Of a stretch of DNA of 64,000 nucleotides, positions 14,592-37,220 are shown piece after piece. Under the pieces are notes generated by a model. That model did not search any database. It saw only the letters and a program-made list of their open reading frames with translations, and was not told where the DNA came from. Position numbers and translations under genes: made by a program. Positions within the stretch are counted from its first letter, which is position 1. Every line of letters begins with the position of its first letter. This stretch comes from Sphingobium sp. AP49. GTDB lineage: Bacteria; Pseudomonadota; Alphaproteobacteria; Sphingomonadales; Sphingomonadaceae. Location of the stretch: positions 3,665,501 to 3,729,500 of the forward strand of contig NZ_CP124576.1 of assembly GCF_000281715.2 (NCBI RefSeq). Reading direction: 5' to 3'.

Positions 14592-14603
14592 ATTGACCTT
14601 TGG
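14592..14603 (-). promoter_or_regulatory. Island box upstream of pseudoazurin
   Basis: Reads CCAAAGGTCAAT toward the pseudoazurin gene, 76 bases before its start. Ten of 12 positions match CCAARGTCCAAT. No TA hexamer starts exactly 22 bases on. Confidence 0.6.
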
Positions 14604-14605
14604 TC

Positions 14606-15148
14606 CTATCGCCCCTCCGGCTTGCTGGGACTGAGATCCCGGCCCAGATCGCGCCAGCCGTCCGTCCCCTCGGCCAGCCACCAAATATTGCGATAGCCCA
14701 TCGCCCGCAGCCGTCGCGCCGCATTCCAGCCCATCCAGCAATCCGCGCGGCAGAAGGTGATGATCATCCGGCTACGGTCTCCGCCGCTCAGCCGCGCGAT
14801 CCCACGCGCGAACCAGTCCGCAATATCCGGCATCGGCGCGCCCCGCCCGCTCTCGGGAAACCAGTGGGCGCCGGGGATGCTCTCATGCGGCTGCGCCAGT
14901 TGCCAGCGTCCGTCCGCCTCGCGATGGCCGCCCTCGGCCGGCAGCACGTCGATCAGAATCATGTCGATATCCGGCCGCAGCGCGGCGATCGCGGCCGGCG
15001 CGATCCTGCCCACGCCCTCGGGCGGGCGATGCACGGGGCTGCGATAATGGGCGATGCGATAGCCCGCCGCGTCGAACAGGCCGGCCTCCTGCGCCTGCGT
15101 CACGCCCGGCACTAGCAGCGCTGCCATCAGCCCGATCCTTGCCCGCAT
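14606..15148 (-). CDS. PQQ-dependent catabolism-associated CxxxCW rhodanese-like protein
   Basis: 180 residues from MRARIGLMAALL, with a signal peptide ending near TQAQ. Rhodanese-like fold; the signature segment CRADCWMGWNAARRL matches the CxxCW-type family found only beside PQQ alcohol dehydrogenase genes. Other marks are MILIDVLPAE, SIPGAHWFP and WWLAEGTDGW. The biochemical role is unknown; it is presumed to be periplasmic redox or maturation. Divergent from the SoxYZ-like gene. The first Met of a longer frame (15259) is rejected because it overlaps that gene. Confidence 0.9.
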   Translation of the reverse strand: MRARIGLMAALLVPGVTQAQEAGLFDAAGYRIAHYRSPVHRPPEGVGRIAPAAIAALRPDIDMILIDVLPAEGGHREADGRWQLAQPHESIPGAHWFPESGRGAPMPDIADWFARGIARLSGGDRSRMIITFCRADCWMGWNAARRLRAMGYRNIWWLAEGTDGWRDLGRDLSPSKPEGR

Positions 15149-15171
15149 CCCTTCGCTCCCGACGCCACGAC

Positions 15172-15183
15172 CCAAGGTGCAAT
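15172..15183 (+). promoter_or_regulatory. Island box upstream of the SoxYZ-like gene
   Basis: CCAAGGTGCAAT, 47 bases before the SoxYZ-like start, with a TAGGCA hexamer starting exactly 22 bases after the box. Forms a divergent pair with the box at 15210-15221. Confidence 0.75.
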
Positions 15184-15209
15184 GGTAGCCACTTTCGCCC
15201 GGCGCTAGG

Positions 15210-15221
15210 CATGGACTTTGG
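15210..15221 (-). promoter_or_regulatory. Island box upstream of the CxxxCW gene
   Basis: On the minus strand reads CCAAAGTCCATG, 62 bases before the CxxxCW protein start; TACCAT starts exactly 22 bases downstream. It also sits in the untranslated leader of the divergent SoxYZ-like gene. Confidence 0.65.
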
Positions 15222-15230
15222 GAGAAGAGG

Positions 15231-35110: not shown

Positions 35111-35492
35111 GCGCCGGCTCTCCAGCGGCTTCCAGCAGATCGGCCTCCGCATCCGTGAAGACGCGCGAGCGGACGATGAAGCGCTGCCCCTGCGGGCTTT
35201 CGAGCGACATGCCGGCGCCCCGCCCCGGCACGACATCGATCGTCACCTGGGTATGGCGCCAATATTCGAACTGGGCTGCGCCGATCCACACCGGCACATC
35301 GCCCGCGACATGGCCCAGCAGCACGTCCTGCGGTCCGACCCGAAACTCGCCGCGCGGGAAACACATCGGCGCCGAACCGTCGCAGCAGCCGCCCGACTGG
35401 TGGAACATCAGCGGACCATGCTGGCCGGTCAGGCACGCGATCAGCATCTCGGCGGCCGGAGTGGCCAGGATGCGGGCGGGAAGATCAATCAT
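35100..35492 (-). CDS. DUF779 protein, aldehyde dehydrogenase partner
   Basis: 130 residues from MIDLPARIL, after a GAGGAGGAG site. Conserved HQSGGCCDGSAPMCFPRGEF with vicinal Cys, and TQVTIDVVPGRGAGMSLE. DUF779 genes usually lie directly downstream of acetaldehyde dehydrogenases, as here; the molecular role is unknown and could be metal or thiol chemistry through the CC pair. Confidence 0.88.
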   Translation of the reverse strand: MIDLPARILATPAAEMLIACLTGQHGPLMFHQSGGCCDGSAPMCFPRGEFRVGPQDVLLGHVAGDVPVWIGAAQFEYWRHTQVTIDVVPGRGAGMSLESPQGQRFIVRSRVFTDAEADLLEAAGEPARGG

Positions 35493-35532
35493 GCTCTCCT
35501 CCTCAACGATCGAGGGCTGGCGAAACCAAAGC

Positions 35533-35562
35533 TGGCGGGCATCCGGGGGAGGATGCCCGCCA
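35533..35562 (-). terminator. Hairpin between aldehyde dehydrogenase and DUF779
   Basis: 12-bp perfect stem (35533-35544 and 35551-35562) with a 6-base loop, preceded by a second stem (35570-35577 with 35596-35603). The minus-strand tail is only moderately T-rich, so it may attenuate rather than end transcription. Confidence 0.55.
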
Positions 35563-35615
35563 AAGGTGCGGAGCGCCAAGAAAGGAGAGAGAAGGGGCGC
35601 TCCGCTGTGGAACCG

Positions 35616-37139
35616 TCAGAAGAAGCCCAGCGCCTTGGGGCTGTAGCTGACCAGCAGATTCTTGGTCTGCTGATAATGGTCCAGCATCATCTTGTGGTTT
35701 TCGCGACCGATGCCCGACTGCTTGTAGCCGCCAAAGGCCGCATGGGCCGGATAGGCATGGTAGCAGTTGGTCCAGACGCGGCCGGCCTGAATGCCGCGAC
35801 CCATGCGATAGGCGCGGCTGCCGTCCCGGGTCCAAACGCCCGCACCCAGGCCGTAGAGCGTGTCATTGGCGATAGCGAGCGCCTCCGCTTCGTCCTTGAA
35901 GGTGGTGACGGCCAGCACCGGGCCGAAAATCTCCTCCTGGAAGATCCGCATCTTGTTATGGCCCTTCAGCACGGTGGGCGTCACATAGAAGCCTTCAGCC
36001 AGTTCGCCCTCATGCACCGCACGCTCGCCGCCGGTCAGCACTTCCGCGCCCTCTTCCTTGCCGATCGCGATGTAGGAGAGGATTTTTTCAAGCTGGTCGT
36101 TCGACGCCTGGGCGCCGATCATCGTCGCGGGATCAAGCGGGCTGCCCTGCTTGATCGCCTTCACCCGGGCGATCGCCCGTTCGATGAACTTCTCGTAGAT
36201 CGATTCCTGGATCAGCGCGCGGCTGGGGCAGGTGCAGACCTCGCCCTGGTTGAGCGCGAACATGGCGAAGCCTTCCAGGCATTTGTCGAAATAATCGTCG
36301 TCGGCATCCATCACATCCTCGAAGAAGATGTTGGGCGACTTGCCACCCAGCTCCAGCGTGACCGGGATCAGGTTTTCCGACGCATATTGCATGATCAGGC
36401 GGCCGGTCGTGGTCTCGCCGGTGAAGGCGATCTTGCTGATGCGCTTGTTCGACGCGAGCGGCTTGCCCGCCTCCACGCCGAAGCCATTGACGACGTTCAG
36501 CACGCCGGCGGGCAGCAGGTCGCCGATCACTTCGAGCAGCACCAGGATCGACATCGGCGTCTGTTCGGCGGGCTTGAGCACGATGCAGTTACCCGCCGCC
36601 AGGGCAGGCGCCAGCTTCCACACCGCCATCAGGATCGGGAAATTCCAGGGGATGATCTGGCCCACCACGCCCAGCGGCTCGTGGAAATGATAGGCGATGG
36701 TGTCATGGTCGATCTCGCTGATCGACCCTTCCTGCGCGCGGGCACAGCCGGCGAAATAGCGGAAATGATCGATCGCGAGCGGGATGTCGGCATGGGTGGT
36801 CTCGCGGATCGGCTTGCCGTTGTCGATCGTCTCGGCGAGCGCGATCAGGTCAAGATTGGCCTCCATCCGGTCGGCCATCTTGAGCAGGATGTTGGACCGA
36901 TCGGTCGACGACATCCTGCCCCAGGCATCCTTCGCGGCATGGGCGGCGTCGAGCGCGACCTCGATATCCTCCGCCGTGCCGCGCGCCACCTGGCACACGA
37001 CCTGGCCGGTGACGGGCGAGATATTGTCGAAATATTGGCCCTTGGCCGGTGCCGTCCACTGCCCGCCGATATAATTGTCGTAGCGGTCGCGGATCAGGGT
37101 CTGGCCGGCGAATTTCTCCAGCGCCTGTTGCAGCATCAT
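35616..37139 (-). CDS. NAD-dependent aldehyde dehydrogenase (ExaC/AcoD-like)
   Basis: 507 residues. Converts acetaldehyde or similar aldehydes to acids. Motifs: VVGQIIPWNFPILMAVWKLAP (NAD site), ELGGKSPNIFFED (catalytic Glu), ALNQGEVCTCPSR (nucleophile Cys), and GPVLAVTTFKDEAEA. GGAG lies five bases before the first ATG. With its island box 69 bases upstream and DUF779 downstream it matches the second step of quinoprotein ethanol oxidation, and probably heads an operon that runs to the FIST and kinase genes. Confidence 0.95.
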   Translation of the reverse strand: MMLQQALEKFAGQTLIRDRYDNYIGGQWTAPAKGQYFDNISPVTGQVVCQVARGTAEDIEVALDAAHAAKDAWGRMSSTDRSNILLKMADRMEANLDLIALAETIDNGKPIRETTHADIPLAIDHFRYFAGCARAQEGSISEIDHDTIAYHFHEPLGVVGQIIPWNFPILMAVWKLAPALAAGNCIVLKPAEQTPMSILVLLEVIGDLLPAGVLNVVNGFGVEAGKPLASNKRISKIAFTGETTTGRLIMQYASENLIPVTLELGGKSPNIFFEDVMDADDDYFDKCLEGFAMFALNQGEVCTCPSRALIQESIYEKFIERAIARVKAIKQGSPLDPATMIGAQASNDQLEKILSYIAIGKEEGAEVLTGGERAVHEGELAEGFYVTPTVLKGHNKMRIFQEEIFGPVLAVTTFKDEAEALAIANDTLYGLGAGVWTRDGSRAYRMGRGIQAGRVWTNCYHAYPAHAAFGGYKQSGIGRENHKMMLDHYQQTKNLLVSYSPKALGFF

Positions 37140-37208
37140 CTTGTCTCCTGGGTCGATTATGGCATCTCAAACTCGGGAGACAGGATGGCAAACTAGGGGA
37201 ACCGTGCA

Positions 37209-37220
37209 ATTGGACCTTAG
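37209..37220 (-). promoter_or_regulatory. Island box upstream of aldehyde dehydrogenase
   Basis: CTAAGGTCCAAT on the minus strand, one mismatch to consensus, 69 bases before the start. A TA-type hexamer (TAGTTT) lies only 13 bases downstream, not at the usual 22. Confidence 0.65.

Follow-up and report, generated by a model that had tools for sequence, protein, structure and literature searches.

The gene cluster and its box

The stretch of DNA analysed here, referred to as the window, covers 64 kb (positions 3665501–3729500) of the single-contig, 4.506 Mb genome of Sphingobium sp. AP49. It includes a cluster of genes for alcohol oxidation dependent on pyrroloquinoline quinone (PQQ), and a 12-bp box recurs in front of these genes. 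Nine promoters within 14.5–37.3 kb have a strong box and a tenth, at 15210, has a weak one. The box is probably part of a dyad operator that resembles the ACTU motif of Pseudomonas, is bound by the ErdR/CrbR-like regulator encoded in the cluster and serves class II activation of the local PQQ alcohol regulon. One regulator would thus very probably switch on the oxidation of alcohols to acetyl-CoA in Sphingobium and its relatives.

An earlier note, made from the sequence, had listed about twelve copies of the box. Nine of these score strongly in the matrix described below. The copies at 25041 (matrix score 6.8) and 50874 (10.4) were unsupported, and the copy at 15210 is weak (10.3, falling to 3.1 when its own gene is left out of the matrix). 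A further match to the consensus, at 37034, was absent from that list. It lies inside the exaC gene and, with a score of 6.2, was not accepted. The copy at 26078 differs from the written consensus at 4 positions and is nevertheless real, as it is the opposite strand of the operator shared by the pedF and propeller genes. A TA hexamer begins exactly 22 bp after the boxes at 15172, 15210, 19427, 23522, 26078 and 26084, and 21 bp after the box at 27489, just as first read. At offset 22 from the porin box there is CACTCT rather than a TA hexamer, and, among the sites listed and judged by eye, CACTCT or CACTGT is found there in many relatives.

Distribution in the window and the genome

When up to 2 mismatches were allowed, the plain 12-bp box was found 11 times in the window (4.68 expected), a number reached by 1 of 100 shuffles. 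With no more than 1 mismatch, there are 26 matches in the genome and 7 for the reversed pattern. The window, 1.4 % of the genome, has seven of the 26, among them both exact ones, and two of these seven (37034 and 50874) are sites not accepted. The 19 matches outside the window all score ≤17.5 in the matrix.

A composite pattern, consisting of GNNCNWWRGKNCAAT followed by 22 free bases (N22) and TANNNT, was written after the sites had been seen. At no more than 1 mismatch it has 6 matches in the window (0.06 expected). Genome-wide it has 9, of which the cluster accounts for 6, and the reversed pattern has 5. At zero mismatches there are no matches in this genome. With the matrix, eleven sites score >18 in 14000–37300. 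The remaining 40.7 kb of the window has none, and neither has a 400 kb sample of the genome, taken evenly as 20 stretches of 20 kb. At >14, there are 12 sites in the cluster, none in the rest of the window and 3 in the 400 kb sample, 2 of which exceed 16. The eleven sites >18 are the nine promoters and two further matches. One, at 25147 (+, 19.7), is inside the propeller gene on the opposite strand and probably arose by chance. The other, at 14598 (+, 18.4), is the opposite strand of the pseudoazurin operator and points toward the end of the CXXCW gene; this pair recurs in some relatives.

In this genome the motif is confined to the cluster. The earlier note would have been contradicted by a similar frequency of the box in unrelated regions, and neither the sampled stretches nor the 3 composite matches outside the cluster (against 5 reversed-pattern matches genome-wide) show one. 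The same comparison gave no wider regulon in this genome. A chance origin of the boxes was ruled out (composite pattern, 6 versus 0.06 in the window; matrix sites confined to the cluster). Descent of one promoter was also ruled out as the sole origin, as unrelated genes share the box and acs is found re-docked behind tbdr2, pazu or porin.

Table 1. Boxes and genes of the cluster. Positions are those of the window. Scores are matrix scores for boxes and bits for protein models. Upstreams are regions scoring above the 99th percentile of shuffles with a leave-one-gene-out matrix, window included
Feature	Position	Strand	Score	Upstreams	Remarks
Pseudoazurin (pazu) gene	14073–14516	-	TIGR02375, 148 (cut-off 109.85)		
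Box before pazu	14592–14603	-	24.8	13/13	no TA hexamer at 21–23
PQQ-dependent catabolism-associated CXXCW protein	14606–15148	-	TIGR03865, 164.9 (cut-off 128.05)		
Box before soxYZ-like gene	15172–15183	+	20.5	17/17	TAGGCA 15206–15211
Weak box before CXXCW gene	15210–15221	-	10.3	7/17, window not among the 7	TACCAT 15182–15187, overlaps end of opposing box
Quinoprotein-associated SoxYZ-like carrier	15231–16055	+	TIGR04557, 198.3 (cut-off 140)		
Quinoprotein relay zinc metallohydrolase 1	16052–17005	+	TIGR04558, 369		start inferred; score for longer open reading frame (ORF) 15887–17005
TonB-dependent receptor 1 (TBDR1)	17035–19368	-	PqqU, 108.7 (cut-off 1200)		best NCBIfam match, far below cut-off
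Box before TBDR1	19427–19438	-	20.9	19/25	TAGCGT 19399–19404
acs, acetyl-CoA synthetase	19453–21426	-	Pfam ACAS_N and AMP-binding		directly behind TBDR2
TonB-dependent receptor 2 (TBDR2)	21423–23450	-	Pfam TonB_dep_Rec_b-barrel, 172.4		
Box before TBDR2-acs	23522–23533	-	24.4	16/24	TATCGA 23494–23499
Porin-like gene	23554–24933	-			no NCBIfam match, no Pfam match above cut-off; counterpart in same place in Sphingobium indicum named porin
Box before porin-like gene	25004–25015	-	26.6	36/37	CACTCT 24976–24981
PQQ-dependent catabolism-associated beta-propeller protein	25054–26016	-	TIGR03866, 398.3 (cut-off 287.3)		
18-bp stretch ATTGTACCAATGGCCAAT	26078–26095	both			serves divergent propeller (-) and pedF (+) genes
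Propeller box	26078–26089	-	21.9	29/39	TAATCC 26050–26055
pedF box	26084–26095	+	25.2	39/39	TACAGT 26118–26123
Cytochrome c-550 PedF	26182–26610	+	TIGR04494, 206.4 (cut-off 122)		
Box before PQQ alcohol dehydrogenase gene	27489–27500	+	22.6	38/39	TAATGT 27522–27527, spacing 21
PQQ-dependent alcohol dehydrogenase (ADH)	27575–29329	+	TIGR03075, 790.2		score for ORF 27500–29329
ErdR/CrbR/AgmR-like LuxR-type response regulator	29466–30110	+	NF041830, 183.9 (cut-off 390)		start inferred; candidate box ligand
NahK/ErcS-family hybrid histidine kinase	30369–32774	-	NF041832, 427.8 (cut-off 400); NahK model, 522.6 (cut-off 1500)		proposed cognate kinase
NosP-like sensor	32615–33766	-	NF041558, 408.7 (cut-off 450)		below cut-off
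Acetaldehyde dehydrogenase ExaC	35616–37139	-	NF050026, 953.4 (cut-off 900)		
Box before exaC	37209–37220	-	22.9		CATCCT ~37182–37187 (by eye)

Genes served by the box

The earlier note had linked the box to a list of genes that included acs. The list stands as regards the genes with boxes of their own, and acs has none. As acs overlaps the end of TBDR2 and lacks its own box, the box at 23522 is taken to lead a TBDR2-acs operon, and the box at 19427 serves TBDR1. The ADH sequence holds adjacent cysteines and a WDFD motif, which we take to be the extra aspartate of lanthanide-type enzymes. Four paralogous ADHs (52–54 % identical) have no promoter site >14, and two of them have a site of 15.3–15.5 about 2.3 kb away.

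The promoters of soxYZ and the CXXCW gene face each other and overlap (15172–15221), the -10 hexamer of each lying over part of the box of the other. Because of this overlap, the two promoters may be mutually exclusive. A DUF3422 protein (33809–35236, 390 bits) is encoded between nosP and exaC, and no site >4 was found in 35236–35620.

Conservation and spacing in relatives

Orthologs of the regulator were found in 10 of 149 genomes of the family (≥260 bits, the next at 139) and in 38 of 81 genomes of the genus (E ≤1e-40), both counts including the window genome. As 43 of the 81 lack it, the cluster comes and goes. The regulator is also found on plasmids, namely pSRL2 of Sphingobium indicum B90A (L172; typed as non-mobilizable), on which the whole cluster is annotated, and a plasmid of Sphingobium sp. 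MI1205.

From the 46 other regulator clusters 40 were taken, 31 from the genus and 9 from the family. The upstream sequences of nine genes gave 250 regions, including the window's nine, after matches that started after residue 60 or fell short of upstream sequence had been dropped. Some of the genomes are incomplete. The iterated matrix kept 233 of the 250 upstreams. As it had picked its own sites, three less dependent tests were added. With the gene in question left out of the matrix, the share of upstreams above the 99th percentile of shuffles varied between genes (Table 1), from 39 of 39 for pedF to 7 of 17 for the CXXCW gene.

Spacing played no part in the choice of sites. Among 213 distinct ones, most of them from relatives, a TA starts at offset 21 in 38, at 22 in 97 and at 23 in 21 (156 in total); every other offset between 8 and 31 accounts for 6 or fewer. 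The -10 spacing described as fixed in the earlier note is thus tight within the window and, across relatives, takes values of 21–23 rather than one. The value depends on the gene: it is 21 for adh (34 of 36 distinct sites), 23 for TBDR2 (12 of 15) and 22 for soxYZ, TBDR1, pedF and propeller. The gene exaC was not used for the matrix, and a site of ≥17.5 precedes it in 11 of the 15 relatives whose upstream sequence was available. Among the four exceptions, G218 has exaC behind pazu, and the pazu box is present. Depending on the locus, acs follows tbdr2, pazu or porin. Of 14 acs loci, 11 have a site >13 before the gene that leads acs, or 10 of 13 when L087 and L172, which are the same record, are counted once; co-transcription is presumed.

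The box has a direction. Of 111 distinct unidirectional sites, 94 have CAAT on the side toward the promoter and 2 have ATTG on the side away from it. In the gap between pedF and the propeller gene, 34 of 39 loci have overlapping sites >12 on both strands. Relatives follow the expected letters less regularly there than the window does: of 21 distinct pedF sites, 8 have the far-side ATTG, and of 18 distinct propeller sites, 7 have a proper CAAT.

Relationship to the ACTU motif

The fuller motif of the box is approximately GACC-NAA-RGKNCAATT, and it aligns with the ACTU of Pseudomonas CrbR/ErdR in one register. According to excerpts of PMC5715377, the imperfect inverted repeat ACTU occupies -52 to -36 of the acs promoter of P. 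fluorescens. CrbR-dependent activation requires it there, and mutations in ACTU reduce or abolish induction in this species. All 16 distinct ACTU sequences that were scored beat their own shuffles in the box matrix (p ≤0.0095), and their summed score is 87.4 in one register as against -371.9 or lower in six neighbouring registers. In absolute terms most ACTU sequences score low, and the box matrix would miss them. By this comparison the box is an ACTU-type operator of a distinct variety.

A TA 21–23 bp after the box would place the box at approximately -51 to -35, a position derived from the spacing. This is consistent with a class II promoter, in which the site overlaps the -35 element and is in fixed helical phase with the -10. 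The class II position proposed in the earlier note thus draws support from the spacing in the 213 distinct sites and from agreement in register and position with ACTU in one Pseudomonas promoter.

The regulator

The regulator is the only strong ErdR-like protein encoded in the genome (183.9 bits, the next best at 67). It falls short of the curated ErdR cut-off of 390, and it is outside the ErdR-like rows of the tree. Being below the cut-off, it is called ErdR-like here rather than ErdR. Its helix-turn-helix (HTH) has the signature LTPQQ...SRTQAV, as in the ErdR-like group, and not the LTRKQ...NRVQAI of the regulators of Pseudomonas-type ped clusters. A supported branch (100/98) in the tree separates the sphingomonad rows from a group made up of the ErdR-like and AgmR-type rows. 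The AgmR-type rows, identified by neighbourhood, form their own clade (4 rows, 100/100), which excludes the regulator. With an outgroup, whose branch is very long, the sphingomonad rows straddle the root and do not form one clade (0 % of bootstraps). The root falls on that long branch, and the regulator may be an ortholog of ErdR, of AgmR or of neither.

Among the 81 genus genomes, the composite pattern (≤1 mismatch) has 233 matches versus 89 for the control in the 38 carriers of the regulator, and 78 versus 63 in the 43 non-carriers. At zero mismatches the numbers are 16 versus 6 and 2 versus 2, respectively. In the family, the plain 12-mer has 156 matches versus 66 in the 10 carriers and 1393 versus 1073 in the 139 others. 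The ADH ortholog is present in 36 of the 81 genus genomes, all of them carriers, and no genome among the 81 has a close ADH (E ≤1e-120) without the regulator, so the link is partly plain clustering. In one genome, G216 (L213), the genes for ADH, SBP, PedF, propeller, porin and TBDR1 are approximately 330 kb from the regulator and the boxes have been kept. As the only strong ErdR-like protein, and one that co-occurs with ADH and with box enrichment, the LuxR-type regulator is still the best candidate to bind the box, as had been proposed.

In the mechanism that we favour, the box would be the promoter-proximal part of the imperfect dyad. A dimer of the ErdR/CrbR-like response regulator would bind the dyad, occupy the -35 place and recruit sigma-70 RNA polymerase to the -10 hexamer 21–23 bp downstream. 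The predicted targets are the genes for PQQ ADH, PedF, propeller, the SoxYZ-like relay, porin, both TonB receptors, pseudoazurin and ExaC, and acs would join through operons, so that the regulon would comprise the whole route from alcohol to acetyl-CoA. The adjoining NahK/ErcS-type kinase and NosP probably supply the phosphoryl signal. The binding, the phosphorylation, the direction of control and the inducing signal are all predictions from sequence.

PQQ supply and TonB receptors

In the genus search, pqqC was found in 4 of 81 genomes and not in the window genome. It was not found in 36 of the 38 regulator carriers, some of whose assemblies are incomplete, and the PQQ enzymes of these carriers therefore probably depend on imported PQQ. 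One carrier with pqqC (G205) has a site of 24.0, without a TA hexamer, 82 bp before pqqA. No comparable pqq site was found in the stretches fetched from the non-carriers G180 and G203. In G203 there is one match of 17.1 shortly before pqqC, which is similar to an 18.4 match inside pqqB of G205. The pqq upstream region of G163 is cut off. TBDR1 and TBDR2 are both led by boxes. They may import PQQ or a lanthanide, which is only a lead given that the PqqU match of TBDR1 is far below the cut-off.

Alternative explanations

A number of observations weigh against activation through an ACTU-type operator by the regulator of the cluster. Many of the relatives are close kin and the counts are not independent. 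A TA at 20–24 is nearly absent in porin (1 of 33) and pazu (0 of 13). Among the sites from which the composite pattern was derived are those of 31 of the 37 other genus carriers. Carriers also have more matches to the reversed control (2.34 versus 1.47 per genome, p 0.027) and, overall, larger genomes. Co-occurrence is partly trivial, as the boxes are in the same cluster as the regulator, and only G216, of the genomes examined, separates the two. Three family genomes without the regulator have many more copies of the plain 12-mer than of the reversed pattern, namely G068 (46 versus 4) and G137 (29 versus 6), both of one genus, and G023 (43 versus 11). This perhaps reflects another repeat or regulator, and the plain 12-mer is therefore not diagnostic by itself. 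Only 1 of the 16 ACTU sequences scores >14 in the box matrix, several being near or below 0. Table 4 of PMC5715377, from which they come, lists at least 16, and the promoters tested were acs, actP, pflu5625 and pflu0110, the rest being predictions. Among 18 regulator loci outside the family (L151–L168), 4 have any site >15. One of them, L160, from another class, has a site of 17.8 upstream of acs beside an ErdR-like gene, and two other such loci with an acs match have no site before acs (1 of 3 in total). In Pseudomonas-type ped clusters, which have the same neighbours, no box was found, the best score being 12.9 (15 upstreams, 4 loci). Finally, the regulator is below the ErdR cut-off and neither clearly ErdR nor clearly AgmR in the tree.

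Some of these points would also suit a real class II operator that is bound by a regulator encoded elsewhere, the LuxR-type gene of the cluster controlling something else. The case for binding by the cluster's regulator is one of sequence comparison, its gene has no box of its own (no site >4 in the gap between the ADH and regulator genes), the genome encodes other NarL/FixJ-type proteins (at most 67 bits to the ErdR model), and the three regulator-less genomes rich in the 12-mer indicate that other proteins may use similar letters. We nonetheless consider this arrangement unlikely, because composite matches clearly exceed the control only in regulator carriers, the box agrees in register and position with the motif of regulators of this family, and the HTH is like that of the ErdR-like group. 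That the box ends near the -35 place, with its CAAT part proximal to the promoter, could be explained if it were an unusual -35 element of an alternative sigma factor and no activator site at all. The spacers of sigma-70 and extracytoplasmic function (ECF) promoters are 15–19 bp long. The 21–23 bp between box and -10 is too long for either, and the box is used in both directions at pedF/propeller. Given also its alignment with a motif needed for activation by a response regulator (excerpts of PMC5715377), a sigma factor element is very improbable.

It is also conceivable that the same regulator binds and acts at some sites as a repressor or dual regulator, since an operator over the -35 element could block polymerase. 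Overlap with the -35 is compatible with repression, as is the head-to-head overlap of the soxYZ and CXXCW promoters, and most of the tested ErdR targets rose on deletion of erdR in P. aeruginosa (excerpts of PMC9927353). We judge repression quite unlikely here, as the box itself sits at the inferred -35 position and mutation of ACTU lowers induction in P. fluorescens, as noted above. Activation by the ErdR/CrbR-like regulator of the cluster is thus the explanation that we prefer.

Comparison with known systems

The closest comparison is with ACTU and CrbR/ErdR (MxtR/ErdR and CrbS/CrbR of Pseudomonas and Vibrio). As far as the excerpts describe that system, it shares with the box the core AC-N4-GT and AAT in register, the imperfect dyad, a site at approximately -52 to -36 before a sigma-70 promoter (for the box, a position predicted from the spacing), a LuxR-type response regulator, and acs among the targets. 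The box differs in fixing C at position 9 (0.91) and G at -3 (0.87), with position 8 looser (C 0.52), whereas the ACTU sequences have C at 8 in 15 of 16 and at 9 in 2 of 16. It also differs in targeting PQQ alcohol genes, in having a kinase of the NahK/ErcS type as neighbour, where the CrbR system has the SLC5/STAC kinase CrbS, and in a regulator below the ErdR cut-off.

The gene neighbourhood is of the AgmR/ErbR/PedR1 type, with porin, nosP (model below cut-off), kinase, regulator, PQQ ADH and PedF. The ped clusters of P. putida and P. aeruginosa (excerpts of PMC12997753; loci L161 and L164) share the porin, nosP, hybrid kinase and LuxR regulator as well as the rhodanese/CXXCW protein, SoxYZ-like protein, propeller, PedF and PQQ ADH. 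Their regulators form their own clade with another HTH signature and their clusters lack the box. The regulon proposed for sphingomonads includes acs, and its carriers usually lack pqqC. No shared motif clearly above shuffles was found for Pseudomonas-type ped clusters in a small test (best word in 5 of 15 upstreams, shuffles 4–5). AgmR has been known since 1991 (reference list of PMC12997753), and no AgmR operator motif was found in the portions of the open-licence literature searched, nor was a motif for a sphingomonad PQQ regulon found in its titles and abstract starts.

Two further systems are more distant. RpuS/RpuR of Sinorhizobium fredii NGR234 also has an alphaproteobacterial LuxR-type response regulator, and the mctP operon, for which no -35 box was identified, depends on a conserved repeat for its full activation (excerpts of PMC9100948). 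It differs in that the repeat is an imperfect direct one, the target is a pyruvate symporter and the kinase is of the SLC5/STAC type. PedS2/PedR2 (ExaD/ExaE) of P. putida likewise includes a LuxR-type regulator of PQQ ADHs, and differs in being a lanthanide-responsive switch between two PQQ enzymes. A text search of PMC6115532 gave no binding motif, consensus or binding site for it.

What is new here is the kinship with ACTU, the inclusion of acs in the regulon and the spread of the regulon. Sphingomonads, which are known for pollutant degradation, thereby gain a concrete, testable operator, with the genes under it, for the oxidation of alcohols by PQQ (probably lanthanide) enzymes. The regulon is tied to a cofactor that the cell seems unable to make, and the box motif provides a lead toward the operator of AgmR. 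We see roughly even chances that a single ErdR-like regulator, acting through a single ACTU-type operator, does in sphingomonads the work of two Pseudomonas regulators, ErdR (acs, acetate) and AgmR (PQQ alcohol oxidation), and that TonB receptors have been added, which may import PQQ or a lanthanide not otherwise available to the cell. In this reading the CAAT half marks the promoter-facing side, and a more symmetric version of the operator drives two divergent promoters. The acetate switch of CrbR/ErdR and the ethanol switch of the AgmR type could then be merged under one regulator.

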